From Heliocidaris erythrogramma (lineage: Eukaryota; Echinodermata; Echinoidea; Camarodonta; Echinometridae): a stretch of 64,000 bases of DNA. The translations under genes and the position numbers were made by a program. The notes under the pieces are model-generated. The model was not told where the DNA came from and did no database searches. It saw only the letters and a program-made list of their open reading frames with translations. Positions 521-55,970 of this stretch are shown piece after piece. Every line of letters begins with the position of its first letter. Positions within the stretch are counted from its first letter, which is position 1. The stretch lies in NCBI GenBank assembly GCA_025617745.1, contig CM046871.1, positions 32,061,579-32,125,578 on the forward strand. The letters are read 5' to 3'.

Positions 521-2164
521 TAAGAGAGTAAGAAAGAAAGAGTTTTAAAAGTTTGATTGATATAAGAGATAAGAGTTGGAAGGAAAATCCACAAATAAAA
601 CACTGACTGCTAGTAGAGGGGAGAATTAGAAGCAAAATACAAAGAAAAGATTTGAGTCAGGATATACAGAATTGTAGAAATATAAGTGAGCTAGACTCAT
701 TGCAAAGAGTAAAAAGAAGTGAATTTTAGTGATCGGAAAGAGTAAGAAAAAGCGACCTTAATTGATTGCAAAGAGTGTAGGAAAGAAATTTGGATCACAA
801 TATACAACGTTCTAGAAATAGAAGTGAACGTGAGTGTTAAGGAAATTTGGGTCAGGATATAAAGAGTTGTGGAAATACAAGTGAGTTTGATTGATAACAG
901 AGAGGAGAAAGGAGGATTTGATTAGAGAAGAGTAAGAAAGAAATTTAGGTTCGGATATACAAAGTTCTTGAAATAAAATTGTGCTTGTGTGATTACAAAA
1001 AAGGAAGAAGAAAATTTGGGTCAGGAAATACAAAGTTTTAGAAAAACAGTGAGCTTCTTTACACTTAAAGGTTTTGAGAAAAACCACACTTTGAGAACTT
1101 CATCTAGAACTTCATCAGAACTCCATTGAATGTACTTACCTAAACTGAAAGCACTTGCCTAAACTGAAAGAATTCTTGAAACTGTTGAAACGCTTGAAAC
1201 GCATGAAAAACATTGTTTAAGAACAGTTTGTTTGTTTTCTTTATACAGCTGATTTGATTGAGTATCTCAATATATGTGATTTTATGAAAGAGGGAACAAG
1301 CTTAGTACATTTAGAGTTGTAGGAATACAAGTGAGCGTGATTGATTACAAAGAGAGAAATAACTTTGGTTGAGGATATTGGAAATTTGTAAACAAGTGAT
1401 TAGGGTGAGTAATTGGAAGAAGGAGGATATTTGGGTGTTTATGTACAGAGATTTGAAAAAGAGAAGTGAGCTTGATAAATTGCAGAAAGAGTAAGCAAAA
1501 TTGAAGTAAGAGAACAACATTGAGAAATAGAAGTGAGTTTGAATAGTTGGAAAGAGAGTAGGAAAGACACTTGGGTCAGAATCCATTTATAACTAATCTA
1601 GAAAATACAGCTAAATTCCATTTATAAAGAAGAGAGTAAGAAAGAAATTTTTGGAGGAAATACAGGGTTTTTACAAAATCAAGTAAGTTTGATTACAAGA
1701 TAACCAAGTAATAATTTTCGGTCCAGAAATATAAGTCTACTTTATTGACAAAGACAGATCAAAAGGAAATTGGGTCAGGATATAAAGTGAGCTTGTTTGC
1801 AGAGAGAGTAAGAAAGAAATTAGCAATTTTGGTACATATAAGCCTACAGTACATTTAGGCTATTATAAAGCTACTCATAATTTTGATAAAGAGCGCCATC
1901 TTGAGACAAAAGCATTATAGTTCCTTACACAGTACAAGTGTATATAAATCTAGGCTATTGAAATACCATAGAGTTTAATATTAGTAAGGATTGTTTTATA
2001 ATTGACAACAGTAATTTTATTTAAGCAATAGACTTTTGGAGTAAGGAATATATACACAACATTATATATCAACATTAGAAATCTGTTAAGAGAAACTCTA
2101 ACTTGTTTACCTGTAATTATTAACTGGAATCGTTGCAAGTTTTGTATTACAAGCAAAATTTACC
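521..2164 (+). repeat. Purine-rich leader of diverged 75-90-bp repeats
   Basis: Between the minisatellite and the ATG there is no gene. Recurring words are gtgagcttgattgattg, aaagagagtaagaaagaaa, tttgggtcaggatatac and gttgtagaaatacaag, which return in the same order many times with drift. This indicates an old tandem array. Copy 2 has the same array at 36491-38155 with some units missing. A pyrimidine tract followed by tatacag near 1230-1248 looks like a 3' splice site but is not preserved in copy 2. It could be an intron, a promoter region, or the subterminal repeats of the transposon. Confidence 0.7.
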
Positions 2165-5100
2165 ATGATGGATATAATTGAATTTAAGGAAGTACTTGAT
2201 GAAATCTTAGATATACTGACTAGTTGTGCATTGGTGACCAACCCAGAGCTTAATGAATGTTGTGTCTGTAGCAATGAAATCAAAGAAATTGAAAGTGATG
2301 CAACATGTGAGTGTTGTAGTAAGCATTTTCATGTGACATGTATGGGATTCCCTTGTGAAGACAAACTTACTGACCAGAGATTGATTTGGATTTGCTCATG
2401 CTGTGGTAGTAGCAACATTGGTCATCGAATCTTTGACAAAGTATGTATTCCATGTCATTATAACAGATACGAGCCTCTCAGGATACCTGATGATGATGAT
2501 GATAATCAACAGTATGTGGAACCGATCAAACAGACAACAAGAAAAATTTGGAGATCAAAGAAGAGGTATGTTAACAAAGGACAAAAGGGCACTAAGTGTG
2601 CAGCAAGAGAAAGTAAATACGATATGAGAACTAGTGAAAGTAGCAGGTGTGAGCATGATTATTTGAAAGATCAGAATGTACCCACTGGATCACTCGACAA
2701 TAACTGGGTCAAGGTGAAATGCAAGAGAACAAACTTGATGGACAAAAGAAGAGAAGGAATATCACATTCAAGTTCAAAAGAAGAGTACAAACCAGACAAA
2801 AAACACACAAGATCAATCAATGGTGTATTTTTGGAACCGGGTGTTACATACATTGGCAAAGCAATGAAGACATTCCATGAAAACCGTAAAAGGAAAGAAA
2901 GAAACCCAAAGAAACATGTACATGTATATAAGGAAAAGAAGGATGTGAACTGTGAAAGAACAGAAGATACCAGTTTGCAGACTTATACCGAAACTCTCCT
3001 GAATGTATACGCATACAGTGTGCAGTCCCCGCATGCAATGAAGTTGTACAATGAAACATGTGGGCGGATTGAAAGAATGCAGACTCGATGTTGGGCCGAT
3101 GTTGCTAATAATTTATCTTCTTTATCAAGAACAGAGTCGAGTGTTGATACTGATGCAGATGCTTGGAATCTTTTTGAACAGATGCAGGATCTACGAACAT
3201 TCAGAGTACATGCTGGTGGTAAGAAAAGACAACGTCAAGGAAGGAACAAGAAGGGACAGTTTGAAAAGAAGGACAAAGGTAATGATGAAAAGAATTGTTT
3301 TGATGTGTCCAAGAAGTGCAAGAATGAAGACAAAAAGGAATCAATCAACAAGAAGTTGAATGATGAGGATCCTGTTTCTAATCTGAAGAATTCTGATAAA
3401 TTGATTAGGTTAGATAAAGAAAATGGAATAGGCTTAGGCTTAGACTTGACCGATTCGAATAACAAACATGTTCCTAAGACATTTCCGGTTAAAAGTGATC
3501 AAGTAGATTCAAGTGCATGTCCAGTGGAGGAAAAGTCAGAACAGCATATTTGCAACATGGAAAGCAAGAATGATACAGATAGAGTTATGCAAGCTGAACC
3601 AGAGATAAATCTTGAAGAAACTGAGGATAGTGGCAGTGACATTGATATACAAGTCAAACGTATCTGTGGAAAAAACTATGTAGAATCTGATACAGACACA
3701 AGTCTTGAATGTGATTTATTTCTTCCCATCAATTTGGCTGAAAGCGAGAAGTCAAGTCAGTGTATGAGTACAAATGATCCAGAGGATGTCATGTGTCATA
3801 TTGAAAGCACTCCAGAAATGATACTGAATGAAGATAGCAGCAATACACCGTTTGATAAAGAAAAACAACATGATCACTTTCTATCAACTAATTCCTTGCA
3901 GTCTCTTTCAAAAGCAAAAAGCAAAGATGAAATTACTAGAGAAGCAAAAGTCAAAGATGAAATTACTAAAGAAGCAAAAGTAGATACTATGTTCACATGT
4001 TCGGATGAATCAGGAGAGGAAATAGAATTTGTATCAAATCTTGGAATGTGTGATCGACCAGACCAGTCTTTCAAATTTTCACCTGTTGAAGTAAATGAAA
4101 AACACAACATCTGTAAGAAATTAAACATTCGCTATACAGGTAGAAGTTGTGATGCAAAGTTAAACAGAGATGGGTTCATCGGAGTTCCTTCACGTATTGA
4201 AAAAATAATTGGAGATGGGAACTGTTTCTTTCGTGCAATTTCATATGTCATTTCTGGAACTGAATCTTACCATAAACTTTTAAGGAAGGCTACCGTTGAA
4301 CATTTGTTACAAACGAATGATATGTTTAGAAATACATTGAGAAGAGAGTTCACAACAGTCAGAGAATATGTTATGGAAAGAAGAATAATTGAAGATGGAA
4401 CTTGGGCTACAGATACCGAAATAAGTGCATTGGCAAATTTGATTGGTAGTGATATTTATTCATACAATGATCAAGTACCCTGTTGGCAGTTGTACTCTGC
4501 AAAGAAGCCTGGAAGAATAAATGTTAAAACATCTGACAGTGGAATATACATACAGTACACAGGAAATGTTCATTTTAACGTTGTGGAATCAGTTAGCACT
4601 ACCATTGTGGATACATCAGAACAGTCAAGAATAACAGATGACAAAAGTGTAGCAGTCAACGCCCAAATAAAACTAATTTGTCAAGGAACATTTAATCAAG
4701 GCCATAGAAAATTTGGTTATTCAGCAGGAAAGCAGTGTGTTGCTAATTCATTATCTGCTCTGTTGTATAGCAAAGTGAAAAATGCTAAAGATTGGAACTG
4801 TAAAGATTTAGACAGGATTCTTATTAATGGTGATGAATTGTATCGTTACATCAGGCAATATGTTTCACATGAAGAGGAATATTTATTAATTTCTGATTTA
4901 CTTGAACACCTAGAGACATATGATGAATTATTTGAGATAAAGTACCATGAATCAGTACCTGGATTATTGGAAGGAGATGGAACAACACTGGAAGAATCTC
5001 TGTCAATGCCATTAAAGCAAGCTCTTCAGCAAGAAATTCATAGTACTGCCAATGCATGTTTTGTAACATTTGGTGGAAATACTTTTGTCATCATATCTGG

Positions 5101-8100
5101 TTATGATTCTTTCTTCATATTTGATTCACATTCTAGGAACAGTGGAGGATTAGTTATTGACAATGGCTACAGTGTGCTTCTCAGAACTCCAAGTTGGCAA
5201 GGTGTCTACAAACACTGTATGAGGCTGGCAAGAACAATGGGATGTTCACAACACACTCAATATGAAGTAACAAGTGTATGTGCGAAAGCATTTTCAGGTA
5301 AAGATGAAACAGTGAAAGGCCATCCACAGTTAGATTACAATTCCTTGAGGCCATCACCATTGGATACTAACAACCAACAAAATTTCCCAATTTCTGAATG
5401 TTCCATGAATTACGAAAGCTGTGATGTAGCTGAGAATTTGAATGATTGCATATTCTCCAAAGAAGAAATCACTGAAAATAGTTCATTCAAATTTAGTCAA
5501 AACTCAAATGAAACAATGAATTTGAATTTACAGGATCACATTCAGCAACAGAAATCGCAAAGTATGTCAGCAGATTTCATGAAATTGAATGAAGACATAC
5601 ATGACAGATGTCTCTCAGAAGGAAATGGTTCTACCGAAACAGTAAATGTCAATGAGCAAATAGATTCAAAAAACTGTAATACATGCCAAAATGAGTCTAA
5701 GAAATTGAATCCAATGAACAACATGCAAAATTTCAATATTTCAGGTAGAAAACGTAAACTGAATGAGTTCGAAAACGATTCTAAAGTTGATGGTGACATA
5801 TGCAGAGAAGTTCATAAAACTAAATTGGCAAAAGTCAGTGAGAATGATTTTTCTACAGTCCATGACCGTAATGATAGCAGTGATCTTAATGATCATTTAA
5901 TGGTAAATGGAGAGGGTCATTCTAAATTTTTGTTTGATGAAAGAAAAGAGAAAGAATGTTTGGAAAGAATGGACATTGGAGATATTTCTAAAGAAAGAAA
6001 TCATAATGGAATTAAGGATGTTAAAACTACTTGCAGTTTTAAGAAGAAGCGAAGAACTAGGAAAAGTTATAAACGGCAGAATGATATTAAAAAAAAACAA
6101 CTAAGAAAAAGGCGAGCTCTGAAAAATACAACAGATAATGATGAGAAAGGGAAAAAATATGAAAATTGCAAAGAGAGTGCCAGAGAGAGGGAAAAAAGAA
6201 ACTTAAATGTGAACCGAAAATATCATACTGATCTCAAATACAGGCAAAGAATGCTCAATTCCTTAAATGAAAAATATCGATTAAATAAAGAATTTAGACA
6301 AAATTTAATAGGGGTGAGGAGGAAAAGATATCAGACAGATGAACTGTTTAAAGAATCAAAGAAGACTAGTATGAGAAATGTGATGAAAAATAAGTACAGA
6401 GATGCACACTTTAAAGAATCACAGAAGAATACTATGAGAAATGTGATGAAAAATAAGTACAGGGATGCAGAGTTTAGGGAATCAAAAAAGACTACTATGA
6501 GAAATGTAATGAAAAATAAGTACAGGGATGCAGAGTTTAAAGAATCACAGAAGACTACTATGAGAATGAAATATCAAAAAGATGTATATTTCAAAGAATC
6601 ACAGAAGACTACTATGAGAATGAAATATCAAAAAGATGTATATTTCAAAGAATCGCAGAAGACTACTATGAGAAATGTAATGAAAAATAAGTACAGAAAT
6701 GTGCAGTTTAAAGAATCAAAGAAGACTTCTATGAGAATGAAATATCAGAATGATGATTCTTTTAAACAAACAAAATTGCTAAGGTTAAAACATAAGTACC
6801 AACATAAAGATAGTTACAGGAATCAAATAAAGAAACACAACCGTAAAAAAAGAATAGTTAAAACATTGAAAATGTCACAGTTTGATAATGTTTTGCAAGA
6901 TTTTAGGTTGGTTATTTGCCATGGCCCAGAATATGTGTGTTGTGTTTGCCTTAAACTTCTCTTTGAAAACCAGGTAATAAAATGCATAAAAAGCAACTAT
7001 AAGATCCAGACATGTATATGTGAAAAGTATTTGCATGCTTGCGATTCAGAATGTCGATCAGAATGTCAAATAGATCAATCAGTGAGATCATGTTTGTGGA
7101 TATGCTACACTTGTCACAGAAAGCTGAAATCTGGAAAGGTCCCTGCGGAAGCACATACTAATAATTTGCAGCTACATGATATTCCAGAAGAACTTGCCTG
7201 TTTAAATTCTTTAGAACAACATTTGATTGCACTTAACATTCCATTTATGAAATTGATGGCATTACCCAAAGGTGGTCAAAATGGAGTACATGGTCCAGTT
7301 GTATGTGTTCCGTCAGATACAGCTAAAACAGTACATATATTGCCGAGACCTGAAACAGATGATCAGTTGATTCGTGTCAAATTGAAAAGGAAGTTATGTT
7401 ATAAAAGTGACTATGAGTACAAATTTGTAGATAAATCTAAGTTGCTGAATGCTTTACAGTATTTGAAAATTAATAATAGGTATTATTTTGATATTTCAAT
7501 TAATAATCAGTGGGAAAATGCAATGGAAAGGAACAAAGAAGATAATGAAAGTGAAGAGGATGTGCCAACATGTAGTAAAGCTCATTTGAAGAAACATTGG
7601 GAAAAGATTGATAAATTGTTGGATGAATATGTTTTAGGAAGTGAAAATGTAGATGAAATCACACAAAGAAACACGGAAACACTCAAAAGCCAACCAGATG
7701 ATAATGATGAAGAACGTTTAAATGGGATGCACTTGGATTCATGCTTACAGCCAGCCGATATTGGACAGGAAATTTTAGATCAGTATTTTGAAGATATAAT
7801 ATGTTGTGCACCATGTGAAGGAAAAAGCCCTGTATCAGTATTGCAGAGTGAAAGCAATGAGGCAAAATGTTTTCCAGTATTATTTCCTCAAGGTCAGGCA
7901 ACGTTTCATGATATACGAAATGAAAAAATAACGTTAGGACGTTATTTGCACAATCGACTGATGCACGTTGATAACAGATTTGCACAGAATACAGATTATA
8001 TCTTTTATGCGCAGTATATTTATGAAGTTCAACAAGTTATGTCACAAGTTTCTATTGCTTTAAGACAAAGTAAGGACAAAAAAGATGACCATTCATTGAT

Positions 8101-11100
8101 AAGTGCCAAGGATTTGAAAAATGCTGAGAAGGTTCAGAACATTTTAAAGGCAGACAAGGGATATAAGTTTCTGAAGCAGATTCGTGGAACACCTCCTTAT
8201 TGGCAGAAGACGCAAAAAGATGTATTGGCAATGGTAAGACAACTTGGGAAACCAACATGGTTTGCATCATTTTCATGCGCAGATATGAGATGGCCAGAAT
8301 TACTCCATACTTTGCTGAGACAGAGAGGAGATACCAGGAAACCAAATGAATTAGGTTGGGCAGATAAATGTGATCTTATTAAGTCAAATCCAGTAACGGT
8401 TGCTAGAATGTTTGATAGGAGATTTCATACTTTTCTTAACAAAGTTATTCTATCCCCAGCTGCACCAATAGGAACTTGTGTTGATTATTGTTATCGAATT
8501 GAATTTCAGTCCAGAGGATCGAGCCATGTACACATGTTATTGTGGGTAGAACAAGCTCCGCAATTAGGAAAAGATAAAGATGATGATGTAGCACATTTCA
8601 TAGATAAGTATGTTTCTTGTGAAAAACCTGATGAGGAAGAAGATCCAGAACTGTATGAAATGGTGAAATCCGTACAACAACATAGTAAGAAACATTCAAA
8701 ATCTTGCAAGAAAAAAGGCACTACTTGTAGATTCAATTTCCCAAGACCACCTTCAGAGAGAACCTTTATTATTAAACCTGCTGATAACAGTGAACTAAAA
8801 TGTAAAAAAAATAAGACCAATCCCAAATTGAAAAATGAGAATGAGGCTGAAGTTTCTGAAAAATCTAAAAGGAAAGAAAAGGCAAAGGAAGTATTAAATT
8901 CTGTAAAGGATGCACTATCTGATGGGAATGAATATAATAGTGTAGAGCAACTTTTTGAGAAACTGGGCATAACACAAAATCAGTTTGAAAATGCACATAA
9001 TGAGAATGCTTCACAGGAAAGTGTAATCATCAAAAGAAAGCCACAGGATGTATGGGTGAATCAATACAATCCGGATTTGCTTCGGGCCTGGAACGCAAAT
9101 ATGGATCTGCAATATGTTACAAACGCATATGCATGTGTAGTTTATATTGTTTCCTATATGTCGAAGGCTGAACGTGAAATGGGAATGCTATTGAATCATA
9201 CATTATCAGAAATGAAAGAAGGAAATACAGATGCAAAGGAAAGCATGAAAAAAATTGGTCAAGCTTACTTGCAAAATCGTGAAGTGTCCGCTCAAGAAAG
9301 TGTGTATCGTGTCTGTAGTCTTAGATTAAAAGAGAGCTCGCGAAAAGTAGAATTTATACCTGTTGGACCTGATCCTGTTAGAATGAGTTTGCCATTAAGT
9401 GTCATTAAGAACAGATCAGAATGTGATCATGATGATGATCAGAATATATGGATGCCCAGCAAACTGGACAGATACAAAGCTAGACCAAGAAATAAAAAAT
9501 TTGCTGATTTGTGTCTTGCAATGTTTTGTTCTCAATATCGAATTTTAACCAAATCACAAGTGAAAAATACACGTAATGAAAATGTCTTTGAATTGGATGA
9601 CAACTTGGGATATATACAGAAACGTACACGTGGAAAAGATGCAGTTGTACGATATCCTCGATTCTCTCCTGTTGTTTCACCTGAAAACTATTATTTGAGC
9701 ATTTTGCAACTATTTTTACCACATTATGCAGATGACCAGTTAAAGCCTCCAACATTTCAAACATACCGAGAGTTCTATGAAACAGGCTTTGTGACAATAC
9801 ATGGTTCTGAATTGGAGAAAGTAAGCTCAATTGTTTGTACAAATCGACAAAAATTTGAAGTAAATGCTGATTCAATTGATCAAGCTGAAGCATATTTAGA
9901 AGAATTTGGTGTACAGGAAGATGCCTGGAGTCTTTTATGCCCTGAAAGTGAACTTGAACGCCATGAGCATCCAAAACAACAAGTAGATATGGAAGATTGT
10001 GATGAAAATACTGATTTTCCTGATCTGAAAGATTCTTCTAAAAAACAGGATTACGGCGTAGAATTGCGATCATCCAAAATCTCTATACATGATAGACATT
10101 CTATGATGAGAGGTTTGAATGAAAAACAAAGGTCTGTTTTTTACAAAGTACGACAATGGTGTTTAGATAAAGTGAATGGAAAATTGGTTGAGCCTTTTCA
10201 TGTATTCATCACTGGTGGTGCAGGAACAGGAAAAAGTCATTTAATTAAGTGCATTTACTATGAAGCAACACGTATACTAGCTCGAATGTTAGAGCATCCA
10301 GATGATGTCTCAATTTTAAAAGTGGCTCCAACAGGAGTAGCAGCATACAATATCGATGGCCATACTATTCACCATACTTTCTCAATTCCAATTAAAGTGC
10401 AATTGCCCTACAAGCCATTAAGTGAAGAGAAAATTAATGCCCTTCGCAGCAAATTAAATCAGTTGCAAATTTTGATTATAGACGAGATATCAATGGTAGA
10501 TCAAAAGTTGATTTGTTATATCCATAGTCGTCTTCGACAAATAAAGCAATCACGTGATGAAACTCCTTTTGCTGGTATTGCTGTTATTGCAGTTGGAGAT
10601 ATGTACCAGTTACCTCCAGTCTTTGGAAAACCCCTGTATAAAGATACACTTGAAGGTGCATTATGGAATGATAATTTCAAGAAAATTGAATTGGAAGAAA
10701 TTATGAGGCAGAAAGATGATACAGAGTTTGCCTGTCTCTTAAACAGACTACGCCTTAAAGAACAGCCTGATAAACTCTGTGATGAAGATCTAGCAATACT
10801 GAAATCGCGTGAAACGGGTGAAGAATTTGAAGATGATCTTCATATCTATTCATGTAATAAAGATGTAGATGCTTGGAATAAAGCAATATTGCATAAAAAA
10901 TGTGAAGGTGTAATATGTATAAAAGCAGAAGACATTGGACAAGATGCCAGTAAAGGAAATGTAGTCCGTGAAAAACCGTGTACACGCTATAGAAGCCAAT
11001 TGCCTAATTATCTCTGGATTGCAGTGAAAGCGAGAGTAATGTTGCTGAAGAATCTTGATGTTAGCAAAGGTCTGATTAACGGTTCTTTTGGAAATGTAAC

Positions 11101-12142
11101 TGAAATTGTAATGGATAGCAAAAAATCGAAACCAGTTTGCATCAGGGTTGAATTTGAAAAAAGTGATATTGGCATTCAGTGCATTGAAAAGTCTCAAGAA
11201 TTTCTTGGAAACAAATATGTCAGAAAACAATTTCCTCTTAAACTTGCTTATGCATGCACGATTCATAAAGTACAGGGTTTGTCATTAGACAGAGCTGTAG
11301 TGTCATTGAAAAATATTTTTGAATCTGGACAAGCATATGTTGCCTTAAGTCGTGTTACTTCATTATCTGGACTAGTAATACAAAACTTTGATCAGAGACG
11401 TATACATTGTAATCCTGAAATAAAAGAAAGATCAGATATTATGCTTCCATTTATTGATGCTATCTCCACTCTTGAAAGAAATTCACATGGGTTCTCTATG
11501 ATTTTACATAATGTACAAGGGTTAAAGCAGCATTATCAAGATGTTGTATCACAAAAACAACTCCTGAATGTGGATTGTTTATGCTTGACCGAAACATGGA
11601 TAAGAGATGATAATGTGTATGATGTTTGTATTGATAACTTCACATTTTACCATCAGTCAAGATATCTTTCATATAGTGAAACTGGACCTGTTACCAAATT
11701 CAAAGACCAATCACATGGAGGTGTTGGAATGTATGTGAAGGACATGAACTCTCATAGATTAAACATACGTGTTGAGAACCTTGAATTTATTGCAATTCAT
11801 GTTACATCACCCATTTCTTTTATTGCTTCAGTTATATATAGACCTCCATCTTATGATATTAAATCATTTTGTGAATGTTTAGAAAAACTGCTTAAGGAAT
11901 TACAAGAAAAATGTATGAAATGTATTGTGATGGGTGACTTTAATGAAGATTTATTTAAACGTACTTCTAAGATAGAACAACTAATGCATGATAAAGGTTA
12001 CAAACAACATGTTGTCGATGCAACAACTGAAAATGGAACATTAATTGATCATGTCTACAGCATAGGAATAAATTCATTGCAAACAGAAATCATGCCTACA
12101 TATTACAGTTATCATGAAGCCATTAAAATAGTGATCACTTAG
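2165..12142 (+). CDS. Helentron (Helitron2-type) Rep/helicase polyprotein, copy 1, 3325 aa
   Basis: Replicase-transposase of a rolling-circle DNA transposon. Domains in order: PHD-like zinc finger (about 32-80); acidic/basic low-complexity linker; OTU protease (about 676-806; D684, C687, H803); a second cysteine-protease-like domain (about 840-1030; C858 in GKQC, D987 and H989 in FDSH) resembling herpesvirus tegument peptidase C76; seven basic KES..MR repeats (about 1394-1540); DUF6570-like cysteine-rich region (about 1589-1780); Helitron_like_N and Rep, with HUH at H2121/H2123 and paired tyrosines Y2327/Y2331 followed by K2334; Pif1-like helicase with Walker A K2690 and DE at 2773-2774; C-terminal AP-endonuclease-like (EEP) domain with HN at 3115, E3143, GDFN D3258, D3295/H3296 and H3317. 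The usual SDH motif of the EEP family reads SYH. The ATG pair has a favourable context (acc before the first). There is no stop or intron over 10 kb, so it is probably recent or active. The Rep, helicase, OTU and EEP calls are firm; the C76-like call is an inference from motifs. Confidence 0.95.
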   Translation: MMDIIEFKEVLDEILDILTSCALVTNPELNECCVCSNEIKEIESDATCECCSKHFHVTCMGFPCEDKLTDQRLIWICSCCGSSNIGHRIFDKVCIPCHYNRYEPLRIPDDDDDNQQYVEPIKQTTRKIWRSKKRYVNKGQKGTKCAARESKYDMRTSESSRCEHDYLKDQNVPTGSLDNNWVKVKCKRTNLMDKRREGISHSSSKEEYKPDKKHTRSINGVFLEPGVTYIGKAMKTFHENRKRKERNPKKHVHVYKEKKDVNCERTEDTSLQTYTETLLNVYAYSVQSPHAMKLYNETCGRIERMQTRCWADVANNLSSLSRTESSVDTDADAWNLFEQMQDLRTFRVHAGGKKRQRQGRNKKGQFEKKDKGNDEKNCFDVSKKCKNEDKKESINKKLNDEDPVSNLKNSDKLIRLDKENGIGLGLDLTDSNNKHVPKTFPVKSDQVDSSACPVEEKSEQHICNMESKNDTDRVMQAEPEINLEETEDSGSDIDIQVKRICGKNYVESDTDTSLECDLFLPINLAESEKSSQCMSTNDPEDVMCHIESTPEMILNEDSSNTPFDKEKQHDHFLSTNSLQSLSKAKSKDEITREAKVKDEITKEAKVDTMFTCSDESGEEIEFVSNLGMCDRPDQSFKFSPVEVNEKHNICKKLNIRYTGRSCDAKLNRDGFIGVPSRIEKIIGDGNCFFRAISYVISGTESYHKLLRKATVEHLLQTNDMFRNTLRREFTTVREYVMERRIIEDGTWATDTEISALANLIGSDIYSYNDQVPCWQLYSAKKPGRINVKTSDSGIYIQYTGNVHFNVVESVSTTIVDTSEQSRITDDKSVAVNAQIKLICQGTFNQGHRKFGYSAGKQCVANSLSALLYSKVKNAKDWNCKDLDRILINGDELYRYIRQYVSHEEEYLLISDLLEHLETYDELFEIKYHESVPGLLEGDGTTLEESLSMPLKQALQQEIHSTANACFVTFGGNTFVIISGYDSFFIFDSHSRNSGGLVIDNGYSVLLRTPSWQGVYKHCMRLARTMGCSQHTQYEVTSVCAKAFSGKDETVKGHPQLDYNSLRPSPLDTNNQQNFPISECSMNYESCDVAENLNDCIFSKEEITENSSFKFSQNSNETMNLNLQDHIQQQKSQSMSADFMKLNEDIHDRCLSEGNGSTETVNVNEQIDSKNCNTCQNESKKLNPMNNMQNFNISGRKRKLNEFENDSKVDGDICREVHKTKLAKVSENDFSTVHDRNDSSDLNDHLMVNGEGHSKFLFDERKEKECLERMDIGDISKERNHNGIKDVKTTCSFKKKRRTRKSYKRQNDIKKKQLRKRRALKNTTDNDEKGKKYENCKESAREREKRNLNVNRKYHTDLKYRQRMLNSLNEKYRLNKEFRQNLIGVRRKRYQTDELFKESKKTSMRNVMKNKYRDAHFKESQKNTMRNVMKNKYRDAEFRESKKTTMRNVMKNKYRDAEFKESQKTTMRMKYQKDVYFKESQKTTMRMKYQKDVYFKESQKTTMRNVMKNKYRNVQFKESKKTSMRMKYQNDDSFKQTKLLRLKHKYQHKDSYRNQIKKHNRKKRIVKTLKMSQFDNVLQDFRLVICHGPEYVCCVCLKLLFENQVIKCIKSNYKIQTCICEKYLHACDSECRSECQIDQSVRSCLWICYTCHRKLKSGKVPAEAHTNNLQLHDIPEELACLNSLEQHLIALNIPFMKLMALPKGGQNGVHGPVVCVPSDTAKTVHILPRPETDDQLIRVKLKRKLCYKSDYEYKFVDKSKLLNALQYLKINNRYYFDISINNQWENAMERNKEDNESEEDVPTCSKAHLKKHWEKIDKLLDEYVLGSENVDEITQRNTETLKSQPDDNDEERLNGMHLDSCLQPADIGQEILDQYFEDIICCAPCEGKSPVSVLQSESNEAKCFPVLFPQGQATFHDIRNEKITLGRYLHNRLMHVDNRFAQNTDYIFYAQYIYEVQQVMSQVSIALRQSKDKKDDHSLISAKDLKNAEKVQNILKADKGYKFLKQIRGTPPYWQKTQKDVLAMVRQLGKPTWFASFSCADMRWPELLHTLLRQRGDTRKPNELGWADKCDLIKSNPVTVARMFDRRFHTFLNKVILSPAAPIGTCVDYCYRIEFQSRGSSHVHMLLWVEQAPQLGKDKDDDVAHFIDKYVSCEKPDEEEDPELYEMVKSVQQHSKKHSKSCKKKGTTCRFNFPRPPSERTFIIKPADNSELKCKKNKTNPKLKNENEAEVSEKSKRKEKAKEVLNSVKDALSDGNEYNSVEQLFEKLGITQNQFENAHNENASQESVIIKRKPQDVWVNQYNPDLLRAWNANMDLQYVTNAYACVVYIVSYMSKAEREMGMLLNHTLSEMKEGNTDAKESMKKIGQAYLQNREVSAQESVYRVCSLRLKESSRKVEFIPVGPDPVRMSLPLSVIKNRSECDHDDDQNIWMPSKLDRYKARPRNKKFADLCLAMFCSQYRILTKSQVKNTRNENVFELDDNLGYIQKRTRGKDAVVRYPRFSPVVSPENYYLSILQLFLPHYADDQLKPPTFQTYREFYETGFVTIHGSELEKVSSIVCTNRQKFEVNADSIDQAEAYLEEFGVQEDAWSLLCPESELERHEHPKQQVDMEDCDENTDFPDLKDSSKKQDYGVELRSSKISIHDRHSMMRGLNEKQRSVFYKVRQWCLDKVNGKLVEPFHVFITGGAGTGKSHLIKCIYYEATRILARMLEHPDDVSILKVAPTGVAAYNIDGHTIHHTFSIPIKVQLPYKPLSEEKINALRSKLNQLQILIIDEISMVDQKLICYIHSRLRQIKQSRDETPFAGIAVIAVGDMYQLPPVFGKPLYKDTLEGALWNDNFKKIELEEIMRQKDDTEFACLLNRLRLKEQPDKLCDEDLAILKSRETGEEFEDDLHIYSCNKDVDAWNKAILHKKCEGVICIKAEDIGQDASKGNVVREKPCTRYRSQLPNYLWIAVKARVMLLKNLDVSKGLINGSFGNVTEIVMDSKKSKPVCIRVEFEKSDIGIQCIEKSQEFLGNKYVRKQFPLKLAYACTIHKVQGLSLDRAVVSLKNIFESGQAYVALSRVTSLSGLVIQNFDQRRIHCNPEIKERSDIMLPFIDAISTLERNSHGFSMILHNVQGLKQHYQDVVSQKQLLNVDCLCLTETWIRDDNVYDVCIDNFTFYHQSRYLSYSETGPVTKFKDQSHGGVGMYVKDMNSHRLNIRVENLEFIAIHVTSPISFIASVIYRPPSYDIKSFCECLEKLLKELQEKCMKCIVMGDFNEDLFKRTSKIEQLMHDKGYKQHVVDATTENGTLIDHVYSIGINSLQTEIMPTYYSYHEAIKIVIT
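6340..6785 (+). repeat. Coding tandem repeat in Helentron copy 1 (7 units)
   Basis: Seven in-frame units begin FKES(Q/K)KTTMR. They come in two lengths, one with NVMKNKYRDAE and one with MKYQKDVY. Each is strongly basic and likely helical. Similar lysine-rich repeats sit before DUF6570 in other Helitron polyproteins. Copy 2 has six units in a different order of long and short types, so the array changes by unequal exchange while keeping the frame. Confidence 0.85.
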
Positions 12143-16736: not shown

Positions 16737-17202
16737 GACTATGACTGAAATGACATTGATCTTAGCCATGCCAAATATGAAAGAGAAATGAAATTTAGTG
16801 AAGAAGATACGACCATAAGTTGATTTTTACAAAATGACACCTGGATGGCGTCACAATAATCTTATGACCTTGAAAAAGATGCAGGGACTTGACCTTATTA
16901 GGATTGATAACTGACGAAAATTTGAAGATAATTGACTATGCCAACTTTGAGGAATTGTGATATCAAATAGCACTATATGAGATATAGCAGGATACTTGGG
17001 AGATAAAGCCCGTATAGCTCTAATACACGACAGGGAATCACGATTTCCATAGGGTTATACATAAACTACTGCACACTACTTTCCAATAGACATAACACGC
17101 AAAATAAGGCAGTTTATTACTTGGTTTGTGATTGTATATGTTAAAATAGTCGAACAAGATGGTAAAATGAAAGGCAAAAAGAAGGAAATTTTTTTTTTTT
17201 AA

Positions 17203-17271
17203 TGGCCCCACCGGGGATCGAACCTGGGTCACTGGAGTGAGAGGCAAGTGCTTTGACGTTTATGACCAATA
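17203..17271 (-). other. tRNA-like module (Glu-CTC-like) in unit 1, copy 1
   Basis: The minus strand reads gcctctca around a CTC anticodon and then aggttcgatccccggtgggg, a perfect B box, followed by a long T run. The 5' acceptor strand does not pair, so it is a pseudogene or SINE head rather than a working tRNA. Confidence 0.6.
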
Positions 17272-17579
17272 TACCAAAATATTTCCCATAGAGATAACAC
17301 GTAAACGAAAAACATGATTCTCAAATCCCATTTTGTAGTGAAAAATTGGGCATGATCCCGACATCTGATCAAAAATTGGAGACCACACTTGTAAAAGCTT
17401 ATAGTCCCAGCTATAACATACTAAAATATGGAAGGAAATAGACCAAAAATAACTGAGAAACTGCTCAGAGAACGATGTCATGTAGATTCATGATTCGAAA
17501 AAAAATCATCTTCCATAGACATAACACGCAAATAGGGAAAATTCTGACATGGCATCTTTAATTGAAAATTTCACTGTGA

Positions 17580-18352
17580 TGACGTCATCAAAATGAAAAA
17601 TGGTGGTGACTGATTTTGTAGGAAATTGCCTCAGCTACAACATATTAAAATCTGGGCGAAAAACAACCAATAATTACGAATATAGAGCCAAATTTGCGTA
17701 AATGTGATGACGTCAAAACATGAAAAATTGAAATTTTGACTTCTGGCGCCATTTTGATGACGTCATAATGTTTATAAGGGTCAAATGATACATGAAATGC
17801 CATCTACGATTCATACCCTACCTGATGATGACAAAAAATTTGGGGGTCAACGGACTATCTAACGAGCTACAGTGAATTTTGTATAGGCATGTTTTTTCCC
17901 ATATATGGCCTATAGTGAGGGATCGCGCCCGCGCGTGCTGCAAACTTTGACGGACGATAATTTCCTTATTAATGGTCGTAGAAAGTTAAAAAGGGTATCA
18001 AATTGCTCAGAATTTTATGTTCTATGAGAGTACACAAGAAAAAACGGCGAGTTTAGGCTCCGTCATGGTGGAATACGGGAAAATGCGCGCGCACCCTTGT
18101 GTGCGCGCAAATTTTTGAAATGCTCAAAATGACCTGAAACGTGTGCAGACTTGATCCTACGTGATTTTGAGCATTTTTAAATTTTGACGCGCGCGTACGC
18201 GCACGTCCTGACCTCTAGATGACCTGTGAAGACATGACTTGATGACCTGTCCAGTGAAGTTTATGTGATGTAAATATAGTTGATTTTTGATGATCGATTA
18301 TGAAGATATAATCGATCTTGTAAATTTACAAAATGGCGTCTTGATGACGTCA
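17580..18352. promoter_or_regulatory. Cluster of four CRE-like palindromes (TGACGTCA)
   Basis: Perfect TGACGTCA octamers lie at 17580-17587, 17708-17715, 17758-17765 and 18345-18352. Their surroundings are kept in the sister units apart from single-base decay. CREB/ATF proteins bind this octamer in animals. Function here is unproven; the sites may only reflect repeat ancestry. Confidence 0.35.
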
Positions 18353-18528
18353 CGATGACCTGATGACCTCCAAAAGCTTAATGGACCATGTCCATGATTG
18401 ACCTCATACATGACATGAAACTTGATGATATTGACCTGGCCGATTTTGAGATTTAGTGGGAACAAAAATTTGTAATAAAAAGAAATAAAGAAATAATAAT
18501 AAAGAAGAAAAATCTTGACAAAATTAAA

Positions 18529-18605
18529 AGGAGGTCTGTCATAAATGACAGACCACCTAATAACTAGAATTTAATTCGTCATGAGGACGAATTAGGTGGT
18601 CTGTC
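18529..18605 (+). other. Terminal hairpin with a competing downstream pairing
   Basis: aggaggtctgtca pairs with tgacagaccacct around a short loop (18529-18558). The right half, gacagaccacct, can instead pair perfectly with aggtggtctgtc at 18594-18605, enclosing an 8-bp hairpin, aattcgtc/gacgaatt (18573-18593). The two outer pairings exclude each other. Confidence 0.75.
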
Positions 18606-19084
18606 TTTCAATTGGTATGATCATCATTGTAATCAGGATGATCATAATAATGGGGAAATACTAAACTGAAGATAGGAAGTCAAGAATGCCACGCATGGAG
18701 ATGCTTCTTGAGGACAGGAATGTAGAAAATGTGTGGAACGGTCATTGGAAGATGTGATAATATTTGTGCAAGATAACAATCATGATAATGGTGATGATTA
18801 TCATGATGAAGGTGATATAATGATGGTGATGACAATAATAATAGCAATGATGATCATGACGGTGATGATATTATATCATCATCATCATCATGAATATCAT
18901 CATGACAGTGCTGATGATAATGATGTTGATGATAATCATCATTATCATTATCATCATCATCATCATCATGAATATCATGACAGTGATGAAGATATTGATG
19001 TTGATGATTATCATGATAATGATATAATGATGATGATGATGATAATGGTGATCATCATCATGATTATCATCAACATCATTATCA
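18606..19084. repeat. Spacer with GAT/ATC microsatellite
   Basis: Non-repetitive up to about 18775, then imperfect gatgat and atcatc tracts to 19084. Bases 18606-18720 match copy 2 (about 54092-54210). No gene is seen. Confidence 0.8.
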
Positions 19085-19318
19085 TTTTGAGAAATTGTGA
19101 TATCAAATAGGACTAATGATATTGCAGGATAGCTTTAATACACTTCAGGGAATCAGATTTTCCATAGGGTTATACATAAACTACTGCACACTACTTTCTA
19201 ATAGACATAACATGCAAAATAAGACATTTTATTACTTTGTTTGTGATTGCTTATGTTATAATAGTCGAAGAAGATGGTAAAATGAAAGGCAAAAAGAAGC
19301 AAAAAAAAAAAAATTTAA

Positions 19319-19382
19319 TGGACCCATCGGGGATCGAACCTGGGTCACCGGAATGAGAGGCAAGTGCTTTGACCAATATACC
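19319..19382 (-). other. tRNA-like module (Glu-CTC-like) in unit 2, copy 1
   Basis: The minus strand has gcctctcattccgg, then gacccaggttcgatcccc and a T run. It is almost identical to the module at 52646-52710. The acceptor 5' strand is missing. Confidence 0.55.
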
Positions 19383-20628
19383 AAAACATTTCCCATAGAG
19401 ATAACACGTAAACGAAAAACGGGATTCTGAAATTCCATTTTGTAGTGAAAAATTGGGCATGATCCCTACATCTGATCAAAAATTGGAGACCACATTTGTA
19501 AAAGCTTATAGTCTCAGCTATAACATACTAAAATCTGGAAGAAAATAGACCAAAAACAACTGAGATACAGCTCAGAGAACAATGTCATGTAGATTCATGA
19601 TTCGAAAAAAAATCATCTTCCATAGACATAACACGCAAATAGGGAAAATTCTGACATGGCATCTTTAATTGAAAATTTCACTGTGATGACGTCATCAAAA
19701 TGAAAAACCGTGATGATTGATCTTGTAGAGAATTGTCTCAGCTATGACATAGCAAAATCTGGGCGAAAAACGACTAATAATTACGAATCTAGAGCCAAAT
19801 TTGCATAAATGTGATGACGTGAAAACATGAAAAATGGAAATTTTGACTTCTGGCGCCATTTTGATGACGTCATAATGTTTATAAGGGTCAAATGATACAT
19901 GAAATGAAATCTATGATTCATACCCTACGTGATGATGACAAAAAAATTGGGGATTTGTGGACTATTTAAAGAGCTAGAGTTAATTTTGTAGAGGCATGTT
20001 TTTGCACGTTTTTACGTTATTTTCGACATAGACGCGCGCACGGATTTTGAACTTTGACGCGCCCGTACGACCTTATTATTGATTGAAATTGATTCCAAGT
20101 TGATGGAAATGATGAAGAAAAGTGTCAGGATTGCAAATCAATCGAAAAAACAGCGATTTAACGTTATTTACGACTTGTGCGCGCGTAAAACGCGCGCGCG
20201 GACGCTTACGTACGGATATTTTTGAAATGCTCAAAATGACCTGAAACGTGTGCAGACTTGATCCTATGTGATTTTGAGCATTTTTAAATTTTGACGCGCG
20301 CGTACGCGCACGTCCTGACCTCTAGATGACCTGTGAGGACATGACTTGATGACCCGTCATGTGAAGTTTATGTGATGTGAATATAGTTGATTTTTGATGA
20401 TCGATTATGAAGATATAACCGATCTTGTAAATTTACAAAATGGCGTCTTGATGACGTCACGATGACCTGATGACCTCCAAAATGTTAATGGATCATGTCC
20501 ATAATTGACCTCATACATGACAGGAAACTCGATGATATTGACCTTGCCGATTTTGAGATTTGGTGGGTACAAAAATTTGTAATAAAAATAAATAAATAAA
20601 AATAAAGAAAAATCTTGACAAAATTAAT

Positions 20629-20775
20629 AGGTGATCTGTCGATACCGACAGACCACCTAAAAATAAAGAAAATCTTGACAAAATTAAAAGGAGGTCTGTC
20701 ATAAATGACAGACCACCTAATAAAGAAAATCTTGACAAAATTAAAAGGAGGTCTGTCATAAATGACAGACCAACC
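20629..20775 (+). other. Array of three ~57-60-bp hairpin repeats
   Basis: Hairpins lie at 20629-20658, 20689-20718 and 20746-20775, each preceded by aatcttgacaaaatta. The first uses tctgtcg/cgacaga around its loop and the others tctgtca/tgacaga, so the closing pair has changed on both sides. The duplicated unit ends here. Confidence 0.8.
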
Positions 20776-35878: not shown

Positions 35879-35917
35879 GTAAGAAGCAGTGAGTAAGCTT
35901 CTGGTAATAGGATATAT

Positions 35918-38155: not shown

Positions 38156-41100
38156 ATGATGGATACAATTGAATTTAAGGAAGTACTTGATGAAATCTTA
38201 GATATACTGACTAGTTGTGCATTGGTGACCAACCCAGAGCTTAATGAATGTTGTGTCTGTAGCAATGAAATCAAAGAAATTGAAAGTGATGCAACATGTG
38301 AGTGTTGTAGTAAGCATTTTCATGTGACATGTATGGGATTCCCTTGTGAAGGCAAACTTACTGACCAGAGATTGATTTGGATTTGCTCATGCTGTGGTAG
38401 TAGCAACATTGGTCATCGAATCTTTGACAAAGTATGTATTCCATCTCATTATAACAGATACGAGCCTCTCAGGATACCTGATGATGATGATGATAATCTA
38501 CAGTATGTGGAACCGATCAAACAGACAACAGGAAAAATTTGGAGATCAAAGAAGAGGTATGTTAACAAAGGACAAAAGGGCACTAAGTTTGCAGAAAGAG
38601 AAAGCAAATACGATATGAGAACTAGTGAAAGTAGCAGGTGTGAGCATGATCATTTGAAAGAACAGAATGTACCCACTGGATCACTCGACAATAACTGGGT
38701 AAAGGTGAAATGCAAGAGAACAAACTTCATGGACAAAAGAAGAGAAGGAATATCACATTCAAGTTCAAAAGAAGAGTACAAACCAGACAAAAAACACACA
38801 AGATCAATCAATGGTGTATTTTTGGAACCGGGTGTTACATACATTGGCAAAGCAATGAAGACATTCCATGAAAACCGTAAAAGGAAAGAAAGAAACCCAA
38901 AGAAACATGTATATAAGGAAAAGAAGGATGTGAACTGTGAGAGAACAGAAGATACCAGTTTGCAGACTTATACCGAAACTCTCCTGAATGTATACGCATA
39001 CAGTGTGCAGTCCCCGCATGCAATGAAGTTGTACAATGAAACATGTGGGCGGATTGAAAGAATGCAGACTCGATGTTGGGCCGATGTTGCCAATAATTTA
39101 TCTTCTTTATCAAGAACAGAGTTGAGTGTTGATACTGATGAAGATGCTTGGAATCTTTTTGAACAGATGCAGGATCTACGAACATTCAGAGTACATGCTG
39201 GTGGTAAGAAAAGACAACGTCGAGGAAGGAACAAAAAGGGACAGTTTGAAAAGAAGGACAAAGGTAATGTTGAAAAGAATTGTTTTGATGTGTCCAAGAA
39301 GTGCAAGAATGAAGACAAAAAGGAATCAATCAACAAGGAGTTGAATGATGAGGAACCTGTTTCTAATCTGAAGAATACTGATAAATTGATTAGGTTAGAT
39401 AAAGAAAATGGAATAGGCTTAGGCTTAGACTTGACTGATTCGAATAGCAAACATGATCCTAAGACATTTCCGGTTAAAAGTGATCAAGTAGATTCAAGTG
39501 CATGTCCAGTGGAGGAAAAGTCAGAACAGCATATTTGCAACATGGAAAGCAAGAATGATACAGATAAAGTTATGCGAGCTGAACCAGAGATAAATCTTGA
39601 AGAAACTGAGGATAGTGGCAGTGACATTGATACACAAGTCAAACGTATCTGTGGAAAAAACTATGTAGAATCTGATACAGACACAAGTCTTGAATGTGAT
39701 TTAGTTCTTCCCATCAATTTGGCTGAAAGCGAGAAGTCAAGTCAGTGTATGAGTACAAATGATCCAGAGGATGTCATGTGTCATATTGAAAGCACTCCAG
39801 AAATAATACTGAATGAAGATAGCAGCAATACATTGTTTGATAAAGAAAAACAACATGATCACTTTCTATCAACTAATTCCTTGCAGTCTCTTTCAAAGGC
39901 AAAAGTCAAAGATGAAATTACTAAAGAAGCAAAAGAAGATACTATGTTCACATGTTCGGATGAATCAGGAGAGGAAGTAGAATTTGTATCAAATCTTGGA
40001 ATGTGTGATAGACCAGACCAGTCTTTCAAATTTTCACCTCTTGAAGTAAATGAAAAACAGAACATCTGTAGAAAATTAAACATTCGCTATACAGGTAGAA
40101 GTTGTGATGCAAAGTTAAACAGAGATGTGTTCATCGGAGTTCCTTCACGAATCAAAAAAATAGTTGGAGATGGGAACTGTTTCTTTCGTGCAATTTCATA
40201 TGCCATCTCTGGAACTGAATCTTACCATAAACTTTTAAGGAAGGCTACCGTTGAACATTTGTTACAAACCAATGATATGTTTAGGAATACATTGAGAAGA
40301 GAGTTCACAACAGTCAGAGAATATGTTATGGAAAGAAGAATAATTGAAGATGGAACTTGGGCTACAGATACCGAAATAAGTGCATTGGCAAATTTGATTG
40401 GTAGTGATATTTATTCATACAATGATCAAGTACCCTGTTGGCAGTTGTATTCTGCAAAGAAGCCTGGAAGAATAAATGTCAAAACATGTGACAGTGGAAT
40501 ATACATACAGTACACAGGAAATGTTCATTTTAACGTTGTGGAATCAGTTAGCACTACCATTGTGGATACATCAGAACAGCCAAGAATAACAGATGACAAA
40601 AGTGTACCAGTCAACACCCAAATAAAACTAATTTGTCAAGGAACGTTTAATCAAGGCCATAGAAAATTTGGTCATTCAGCAGGAAAGCAGTGTGTTGCTA
40701 ATTCATTATCTGCTCTGTTGTATAGCAAAGTGAAAAATGCTAAAGATTGGAACTGTAAAGATTTAGACAGGATTCTGATTAATGGTGATGAATTGTATCG
40801 TTACATCAGGCAATATGTTTCACATGAAGAGGAATATTTATTAATTTCTGATTTACTTGAACACCTAGAGACATATGATGAATTATTTGAGATAAAGTAC
40901 CATGAATCAGTACCTGGATTATTGGAAGGAGATGGAACAACACTGGAAGAATCTCTGTCAATGCCATTAAAGCAAGCTCTTCAGCAAGAAATTCATAGTA
41001 CTGCCAATGCATGTTTTGTAACATTTGGTGGAAATACTTTTGTCATCATATCTGGTTATGATTCTTTCTTCATATTTGATTCACATTCCAGGAACAGTGG

Positions 41101-44100
41101 AGGATTAGTTATTGACAATGGCTACAGTGTGCTTCTCAGAACTCCAAGTTGGCAAGGTGTCTACAAACACTGTATGAGGCTGGCAAGAACAATGGGATGT
41201 TCACAACACACTCAATATGAAGTAACGAGTGTATGTGCGAAAGCATTTTCAGGTAAAGATGAAACAGTGAGAGGCCATCCACAGTTAGATTACAATTCTT
41301 TGAGGCTATCACCATCGGATACCAACAACCAAGAAAATTTCCAAATTTCTGAATGTTCCATGAATTACGAAAGCTCCGATATAGCTGAGAATCTGAATGA
41401 TTGCATATTCTCCAAAGAAGAAATTAGTGAAAATAGTTCATTCAAATTTAGTCAAAACTCAAATGAAACGATGAATTTGAATTTACAGGATCACATTCAG
41501 CAACAGAAATCCCAAAGTATGTCAGCAGATTTCATGAAATTGAATGAAGACATACATGACAGATGTCTCTCAGAAGGAAATGGTTCTACCAAAATAGTAA
41601 ATGTCAATGAGCAAATAGATTCAAAAAACTGTAATACGTGCCAAAATGAGTCTAAGAAATTGAATCCAATGAACAACATGCAAAATTTCAATATTTCAGG
41701 TAGAAAACGTAAACTGAATGAGTTCGAAAACGATTCCAAAGTTGATGTTGACATATGCAGAGAAGTTCATAAAACTAAATTGGCAAAAGTCAGTGAGAAT
41801 GATTTTTCAACAGTCCATGACCGTAATGATAGCAGTGATCTTGATGATCATTTAATGGTAAATGGAGAGGGTCATTCTAAATTTTTGTTTGATGAAAGGA
41901 AAGAGAAAGAATGTTTGGAAAGAATGGACATTGGAGATATTTCGAAAGAAAGAAATCATAATGGAATTAAGGATGTTAAAACTACTTGCAGTTTTAAGAA
42001 AAAGCGCAGAACTAGGAAAAGTTATAAACGGCAAAATGATTTAAAAAAAAAACAACTAAGAAAAAGGCGAGCTCTGAAAAATACAACAGATAAAGATGAG
42101 AAAAAGAAAAAATATGAAAATTGCAAAGAGAGTGCCAGAGAGAGGGAAAAAAGAAACTTAAATGTGAACCGAAAATATCATACTGATCTCAAATACAGAC
42201 AAAGAGTGCTCAATTCCTTAAATGAAAAATATCGATTAAATAAAGAATTTAGACAAAATTTAATAGGGGTGAGGAGGAAAAGATATCAGACAGATGAACT
42301 GTTTAAAGAATCAAAGAAGACTACTATGAGAAATGTGATGAAAAATAAGTACAGAGATGCAGAATTTAAAGAATCACAGAAGAATACTATGAGAATGAAA
42401 TATCAAGAAGATGCTCAATTCAAAGAATCACAGAAGACTACTATGAGAATGAAATATCAAGAAGATGCTCGATTCAAAGAATCGCAGAAGACTACTATGA
42501 GAATGAAATATCAAAAAGATGTACATTTCAAAGAATCGCAGAAGACTACTATGAGAAATGTAATGAAAAATAAGTACAGAAATGCGCAGTTTAAAGAATC
42601 AAAGAAGACTTCTATGAGAATGAAATATCAGAATGATGATTCTTTCAAACAAACAAAATTGCTAAGGTTAAAACATAAGTACCAACATAAAGATAGTTAC
42701 AGGAATCAAATAAAGAAACACAACCGTAAAAAAAAAATAGTTAAAACATTGAAAATGTCACAGTTTGATAATATTTTGCAAGATTTTAGGTTGGTTATTT
42801 GCCATGGCCCAGAATATGTGTGTTGTGTTTGCCTTAAACTTCTCTTTGAAAACCAGGTAATGAAATGCAAAAAAAGCAACTATAAGATCCAGACATGTAT
42901 CTGTGAAAAGTATTTGCATGCTTGCGATTCAGAATGCCGATCAGAATGTCAAATAGATCAATCAGTGAGATCATCTTTGTGGATATGCTACACTTGTCAC
43001 AGAAAGTTGAAATGTGGAAAGGTCCCTGCGGAAGCACATACTAATAATTTGCAGCTACATGATATTCCAGAAGAACTTGCCTGTTTAAATTCTTTAGAGC
43101 AACACTTGATTGCACTTAACATTCCATTTATGAAATTGATGGCATTACCCAAAGGTGGTCAAAATGGAGTACATGGTCCAGTTGTATGTGTTCCCTCAGA
43201 TACAGCTAATACAATACAGATATTGCCTAGACCTGAAACAGATGATCAGTTGATTCGTATCAAATTGAAAAGGAAGTTATCTTACAAAGGTCACTATGAG
43301 TACAAATTTGTAGATAAATCTAAATTGCTGAATGCTTTACAGTATTTGAAAATTAATAATAGGTATTATTTTGATATTTCAATCAATGATCAGTGGGAAA
43401 ATGCAATGGAAAGGAACAAAGAAGATAATGAAAGTGAAGAGGATGTGCCAACATGTAGTAAAGCTCATTTGAAGAAACATTGGGAAAAGATTGATAGATT
43501 GTTGGATGAATATGGAAGTGAAAATGCAGATGAAAGCACACAAAGAAACACGGAAACACTCAAAAGCCAACCAGATGATAATGATGAAGAACGTTTAAAC
43601 GGGATGCACTTGGATTCATGCTTACAGCCTGCCGATATTGGACAGGAAATTTTAGATCAGTATTTTGAAGATATAATATGTTGTGCACCATGTGAAGGAA
43701 AAAGCCCTGTATCAGTATTGCAGAGTGAAAGCAATGAGGCAAAATGTTTTCCAGTATTATTTCCTCAAGGTCAGGCAACGTTTCATGATAAACGAAATGA
43801 AAAAATAACATTAGGACGTTATTTGCACAATCGACTGATGCACGTTGATAACAGATTTGCTCAGAATACAGATTATATCTTTTATGCGCAGTATATTTAT
43901 GAAGTTCAACAAGTTATATCACAAGTTTCTATTGCTTTAAGACAAAGTAAGGACAAAAAAGATGACCATTCATTGATAAGTGCCAAGGATTTGAAAAATG
44001 CTGAGAAGGTTCAGAACATTTTAAAGGCAGACAAGGGATATAAGTTTTTGAAGCAGATTCGTGGAACACCCCCTTATTGGCAGAAGACGCAAAAAGATGT

Positions 44101-48834: not shown

Positions 48835-48889
48835 TGAAGACTTTTTTTCTTCTAACTCTTGCATAACTTTCCACGCCATTTTTAATTAT

Positions 48890-54343: not shown

Positions 54344-54566
54344 ATACAGGATACTTGGCAGATTAACCCCTTAGCTCTAATACAGGACAGGAAATCACAA
54401 TTTCCATAGGGTTGTACACAAAACTACTGCACACTACTTTCTAATAGACATAATACGGGAAAATAAGGCAGTTTATTACATGATTTGTGATTTTTTATGT
54501 TATACTAGTCGAAGAGGATTGTAAAATGACAGGCAAAAAGAAGCAAAAAAAAAAAAAAAAAAAATC

Positions 54567-55964: not shown

Positions 55965-55970
55965 AATAAT

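Follow-up and report, generated by a model that had tools for sequence, protein, structure and literature searches.

Why would a rolling-circle transposon encode two different cysteine proteases ahead of its own transposition enzymes? The question is raised by a 64-kb stretch of the Heliocidaris erythrogramma genome (hereafter the window), in which a single ATG-to-stop frame at 2165..12142 (+), preceded by an in-frame TAA at 2114, 16 codons ahead of the ATG, encodes a polyprotein of 3325 aa (copy A). Its domains lie in the order PHD-like finger, OTU, VTD/C76, DUF6570, HUH Rep, Pif1 helicase and EEP endonuclease. Six of the seven were detected by Pfam both here and in a second copy (copy B), the PHD finger being recognized instead by motif and through relatives. 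When the whole copy A protein was used as query, the OTU, Herpes_teg_N, DUF6570 (residues 1657-1782, E 3.4e-20), Helitron_like_N (1929-2126, E 9.7e-35), PIF1 (2651-2852, E 4.6e-29) and C-terminally fused Exo_endo_phos (3115-3297, E 1.1e-8) matches all exceeded the curated cut-offs. Copy A thus combines a Rep with HUH and two-tyrosine motifs, a Pif1-type helicase and a C-terminal AP-type endonuclease. Judged by its sequence, it is the polyprotein of an autonomous Helentron, a rolling-circle transposon, as a first-pass annotation of the window had proposed. The frame also contains a coding minisatellite of KYRDAxFKESQK-type Lys/Arg-rich repeats (6337-6755 in copy A, 42283-42655 in copy B), whose number depends on the copy. 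A KRAB match in the linker (E 0.0063) fell below its cut-off and was taken as chance.

Coordinates of the features of the two Helentron copies in the window
Feature	Position	Strand	Evidence
Helentron polyprotein copy A, 3325 aa	2165..12142	+	ORF, Pfam
PHD-like finger copy A, residues 32-80	2258..2404	+	spacing, shuffles, relatives' PF00628 matches, PDB profile
OTU copy A, residues 664-825 (D684, C687, H803)	4154..4639	+	Pfam; PDB 3tmo
VTD/Herpes_teg_N copy A, residues 830-1036 (Q845, C858, D987, H989)	4652..5272	+	Pfam; PDB 8add
In-frame 54-63 bp tandem repeats, Lys/Arg-rich coding	6337..6755	+	number unequal between copies
DUF6570, second Cys-rich cluster just ahead	7133..7510	+	Pfam
Rep (Helitron_like_N), HUH motif HVH at residues 2121-2123	7949..8542	+	Pfam, motif
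Two-tyrosine motif YIVSY, within residues 2325-2334	9137..9166	+	motif
Pif1-type helicase core	10115..10720	+	Pfam
C-terminal EEP (AP-type) endonuclease	11507..12055	+	Pfam
Helentron polyprotein copy B, 3287 aa	38156..48019	+	ORF, Pfam
PHD-like finger copy B	38249..38395	+	motif
OTU copy B	40109..40594	+	motif, Pfam
VTD copy B	40607..41227	+	motif, Pfam

The first of the two proteases has the DGNC motif and catalytic His of an OTU domain together with a profile match to Pfam OTU (residues 683-768, E 3.7e-8, 34.4 bits against a cut-off of 23.3 with the whole copy A protein; E 2.3e-10 with the domain alone). In the PDB it matched OTUD5 (3tmo, E 4e-8), and the residues D684, C687 and H803 previously assigned to it were exact. 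The second, which had been likened to C76 tegument proteases on account of its GKQC and FDSH motifs, indeed matched Herpes_teg_N above the cut-off (residues 844-993, E 1.8e-8, 34.7 bits against 25.0 with the whole protein; E 2e-10 with the domain alone), the profile of the herpesvirus large tegument deubiquitinase (MEROPS C76). Its catalytic set consists of C858 (GKQC, 855-858), D987 and H989 (FDSH, 986-989), with Q845 upstream. The best PDB match of this domain as a single sequence was 8add (E 4.3e-5). A profile built from eight domains (A3) found 8add at E 1.3e-13 and also reached herpesvirus large tegument proteins in the PDB (E 3.4e-6 and 7.7e-5), and PF04843 was matched by 8/8 members of the A3 alignment at E up to 0.01 (best 1.3e-13). 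Because the AlphaFold models were of no use (mean pLDDT 36.3 over residues 655-1040, computed from two near-identical rows), the papain-like fold of the VTD rests on sequence homology. In the single-sequence PDB alignment, inspected by eye, the zebrafish ubiquitin-binding pair D376-E377 aligns with S-D in the copy A VTD, so that one acidic residue is missing. The OTU and VTD represent two distinct cysteine protease families, and both most likely act as deubiquitinases.

The same window holds a second intact Helentron ORF (copy B), which has the same domains in the same order. The longest stretch common to the two copies spans 12.9 kb at 94.5% identity, and four stretches of their non-coding flanks are 91-96% identical. 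Across their 3287 aligned codons, 106 synonymous and 138 replacement changes separate the two ORFs (dN 0.0176, dS 0.0573, dN/dS 0.307; Fisher p 4.4e-18 on rounded counts), and the 38 gapped codons between them preserve the frame. Between copies A and B, dN/dS was 0.184 for the OTU (p 0.005), 0.087 for the VTD (p 0.03, from only 4 changes, 3 synonymous and 1 replacement), 0.318 for Rep, 0.190 for the helicase and 0.332 for the EEP domain; for the linker at residues 111-650 it was 0.73, not significantly different from neutral (p 0.31).

Relatives of the OTU-VTD stretch are numerous. A search of the animal's own genome (1.064 Gb, 26 contigs) gave at least 152 matches, a lower bound with 107 of 171 candidates scored; ten of the matches listed contain stops. 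We grouped the matches by identity into F1, the window's own group (97-100%, 11 full matches among those listed), F2 (72-75%, 18 full or nearly full among those listed), F3 (about 65% in the VTD and 71% in the OTU, with the domains spaced further apart) and F4 (about 45% in the VTD). Among the best 30 of the at least 152 matches (L001-L030), a choice that makes the sample lean towards intact copies, the OTU motifs DGNC and HFN and the VTD motifs TFNQG, GKQC and FDSH are kept in 29/29 loci with both domains (L001-L029), one of which carries a stop. The remaining locus, L030, has no OTU Cys part, and the VTD catalytic motifs are kept in all 30. Comparing 11 F1 with 16 F2 copies, with L028-L030 left out as shorter or containing a stop, gave dN/dS of 0.217 for the OTU and 0.249 for the VTD. 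Both domains are under purifying selection. No relatives were confirmed in collections of viral contigs and genome contigs.

The amino-terminal finger (residues 32-80) follows the C4HC3 spacing and has the conserved Trp two positions ahead of its penultimate Cys, a pattern that arose in 0/20000 shuffles of the first 110 aa and 0/2000 of the whole protein. No Pfam model matched the first 110 aa of copy A at E up to 5. PF00628 was matched by the four other members of a five-member alignment (A4) at E up to 1 (best 2.2e-7), and the profile retrieved PHD fingers from the PDB (best E 1.8e-4); as a single sequence, the copy A N-terminus gave a weak match to the Pygopus PHD (E 0.0033). The copy A domain shares 44% identity with its L033 counterpart (E 2.6e-18), and PHD fingers are also present in an F1 copy (L038), an F2 copy (L039), L034, L035, L031 and L036. 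A PHD or PHD-like finger occurs at every element N-terminus read, in degenerate form in L037 and in L032, where the His is not aligned. Between copies A and B the finger shows 0 synonymous and 2 replacement changes, too few to inform on selection, one of which alters a Cys outside the C4HC3 set. Spacing, shuffles and relatives thus bear out the N-terminal PHD finger of the first-pass annotation. The check proposed at the time, by structure or profile for residues 840-1030 and the PHD region, succeeded in part: Herpes_teg_N and OTU profiles matched, a PHD profile did not match the window's own sequence, and the models, including that of residues 1-110 (AlphaFold, two near-identical rows, mean pLDDT 33.9), were too poor for use.

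The deubiquitinase regions of six further elements, together with the window, revealed three domain orders in this genome. L034 has the same array as the window, PHD-OTU-VTD. Two longer Helentrons, on contigs C21 and C11 respectively, carry PHD-VTDi-PHD-OTU-VTD-OTU in one open frame (L035+L031) and VTDi-PHD-OTU-VTD-OTU over the region read, which begins downstream of the element's start (L036). The third order, PHD-VTDi-VTD-OTU, is that of L033, of L032 with its degenerate PHD, and of L037, in which the PHD-like stretch lies in another frame. In the additional VTDs (VTDi of L031, L033 and L036; the leading VTD of L032 and of L037) the Cys and Asp-x-His are retained but the NQ of GTFNQG is not, which makes the activity of these domains uncertain. 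Among the matches listed, a second OTU-like match lies downstream of the VTD at seven places, at six of which the three matches share one frame length, and at six other places a VTD is followed by an OTU with no upstream OTU listed; the arrays read cover two of the seven and three of the six.

Comparison of the arrays suggests that their modules have been exchanged. Alignment of L034 to L031 fails over the first 1237 bases and bases 5395-5879 (most of OTU2), that of L033 to L031 mainly over 1216-3986 (PHD2 and OTU1). Phylogenetic trees place OTU2 of L031 and L036 with the OTU of L033 (99/98), and OTU1 with that of L034 (99/100); a distinct cluster (97/96) unites VTDi with the first VTDs, subject to a long-branch warning. 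Synonymous divergence between L031 and L034 was 0.040 in OTU1 and 0.084 in the VTD as against 0.354 in PHD2 and 0.328 in the linker; between L031 and L033 it was 0.099 in OTU2, 0.307 in VTDi and 0.429 in the VTD. In 150-base blocks, L031 and L034 are 91-99% identical across OTU1-VTD and 86-88% from residue 1613 onward. Upstream blocks range over 62-99%: the first PHD block is 96% identical, subsequent blocks 62-85% with one at 93%, and identity reaches 94-99% from about residue 863, ahead of OTU1. Similarity in the OTU-VTD block thus far exceeds that in most of the flanking sequence (OTU1-VTD versus the whole upstream part, Fisher p 1.6e-31, with sites treated as independent). The pattern is best explained if a block surrounding OTU-VTD has undergone recombination or gene conversion. 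Misaligned low-complexity sequence in the linker may have widened the contrast, and the block lacks sharp edges. A tentative generalization, to which we give somewhat less than even credence, is that the deubiquitinase domains of these Helentrons behave as exchangeable cassettes, from which PHD-bearing arrays of two to four OTU/VTD units may have been built, duplicated, partly altered in their active sites (VTDi) and swapped between lineages. If true, this would suggest that the elements are in an arms race with a ubiquitin response of the host.

On the right, homology between the A and B blocks stops at tandem stem-loops (about 20629-20775 and 55878-55964; fold z -6.9 to -9.5), preceded in each block by two 1.6-kb repeats. 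These stem-loops could represent either the 3' termini of the Helentrons or repeats independent of them. No convincing inverted repeat was found as a left element end or matching subTIR; 3 kb further left, A/B homology continues, broken by insertions. The two blocks may be either two insertions of an element of about 20 kb or a segmental duplication. The 1.6-kb repeat occurs in four copies without long ORFs (16946-18563, 19084-20720, 52415-54048 and 54372-55966). A pair of them follows each Helentron ORF, in the ORF's orientation, and the copies terminate in stem-loops (GGTCTGTC...GACAGACC), of which some are tandem. The copy at 52415 is 92.5% identical to that at 19084 and 82.6% identical, over a longer stretch, to its positional counterpart. 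A 35-bp minisatellite, AACCACTGAGGAAGCTCGTGG..., lies upstream of both ORFs (156-418, 7.6 copies; 35890-36391, 14.4 copies). Rfam gave two tRNA matches in the window, 24993-25064 (-) and 48949-49021 (+), the latter inside a palindrome (48885-49052) between the copy B ORF and the downstream repeats. A reverse transcriptase ORF of 349 aa (57234-58283, -; RVT_1 E 9.6e-10) belongs, we presume from its look, to a Penelope-like element with a GIY-YIG end.

What, then, would the two proteases do for the element? The best explanation, which we hold at a probability of roughly 85%, is that this autonomous Helentron uses its OTU and VTD deubiquitinases to protect the transposase or its partners, with the PHD finger docking on chromatin. 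The HUH Rep, Pif1 helicase and EEP endonuclease would perform rolling-circle transposition; the OTU and VTD would strip ubiquitin off the transposase or off host proteins present where the element integrates or replicates, delaying proteasomal or repair-linked removal; and the N-terminal PHD finger would most likely dock the polyprotein on chromatin. SUMO, the other mark that had been raised as a target, is unlikely by analogy to be that of the VTD, because three zebrafish VTDs were unreactive with SUMO1 and SUMO3 probes in the available text of PMC9741609.

The domains could instead act through the PHD finger on ubiquitin or repair signals in chromatin, such as ubiquitinated histones or repair factors, rather than in protection from the proteasome. 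The recurrence of the finger at the element N-termini speaks for such a role; PHD fingers, however, also have ligands other than histones, and we consider this version on its own rather unlikely. It is in line with the repair role that Bao et al. 2010 proposed for transposon OTU and Ulp1 domains, and with the joint presence of PHD and Ulp1 in one Ginger1 family (PMC2836005, in the part available). Self-processing of the roughly 3300-aa product, suggested in the first-pass annotation, is retained as a less probable rival, in which the two proteases would release Rep, helicase and endonuclease as individual products. The long, weakly constrained linker ahead of the proteases would be compatible with cleavage, viral deubiquitinases often also process polyproteins, typically at di-glycine (PMC9741609, in part), and cleavage was suggested as a possible role of the Helentron OTU in the accessible portion of the DINE-1 paper (PMC4067079). 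Against this, no ubiquitin-like cleavage site is evident between the domains: each copy contains GG 6 times, with its sole [LIVM]xGG overlapping the Walker A motif, making this scenario improbable. The view of the proteases as passengers, host fragments that the element captured and does not use, is largely refuted, for although gene-fragment capture is frequent in Helitrons (PMC6431247, available part), the catalytic residues are kept in 29/29 sampled loci, dN/dS between subfamilies is 0.22-0.25 in both domains, and published Helitron VTDs are active (PMC9741609, available part).

The element bears on the open question of why transposons and herpesviruses carry deubiquitinases. Its many long-open-frame copies in at least three domain orders are natural variants for testing ubiquitin removal in transposition, and for asking if the OTU and VTD duplicate each other's work or share it out; the PHD finger offers a concrete, testable link to chromatin.

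How does this element compare with known systems? The large tegument deubiquitinase of herpesviruses likewise has the Cys...Asp-x-His order and an NQ..FG..GxQC..N stretch, and differs in being part of a virion protein. As a single sequence, the copy A VTD scores better against the zebrafish Helitron VTD (4.3e-5) than against herpesviral chains (0.082), and the same holds for the A3 profile (1.3e-13 as against 3.4e-6 and 7.7e-5). According to the available text of Erven et al. 2022 (PMC9741609), 1221 non-viral VTD homologs were retrieved, the majority in Helitrons, of the Helentron subclass, and 121 VTD Helitrons also carry an OTU; the hosts are vertebrates, insects, cnidarians and molluscs. 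The combination of OTU and C76 domains, thought undescribed when the window was first annotated, is therefore already published for Helentrons. The same source reports that the zebrafish DrT1 and DrT2 Helentrons likewise combine RepHel, an AP-type endonuclease and a VTD, with an added OTU in DrT2; that three zebrafish VTDs were assayed, one of them from the VTD+OTU element DrT2, with deubiquitinase activity seen for zebrafish Helitron VTDs; and that a Helitron VTD has been crystallized (8ADD, zebrafish DrT1-VTD2). Its authors suggest that VTDs prevent degradation of proteins needed for transposition. Unlike L031 and L036 here, no OTU-VTD-OTU array is described in the accessible part of that paper. 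Endonuclease-bearing Helentrons often have an OTU too (PMC5148889), and the OTU Helentrons of Thomas et al. 2014 (PMC4067079, in part) likewise combine Rep, helicase, endonuclease and an OTU cysteine protease; unlike for the domains here, the words tegument and PHD are absent from that main text.

A Helitron with a PHD finger, or with PHD and OTU, was not evident in the literature searched (titles and abstract openings), and the word PHD occurs 0 times in the main texts, figures and supplements aside, of PMC9741609, PMC4067079, PMC6431247 and PMC5148889. The nearest parallel for the finger is Ginger1 (Bao et al. 2010, PMC2836005), in which transposases are fused to OTU or Ulp1 and Ginger1-9_HM carries Ulp1 and PHD. 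Ginger1 differs in its integrase-like DDE transposase, which is not rolling circle, and, in the part of that paper available, in keeping OTU and Ulp1 apart and naming no VTD. To the published pairing of OTU and VTD, our results thus suggest adding an N-terminal PHD finger, catalytic residues kept under purifying selection, and reshuffled arrays with exchange of modules.
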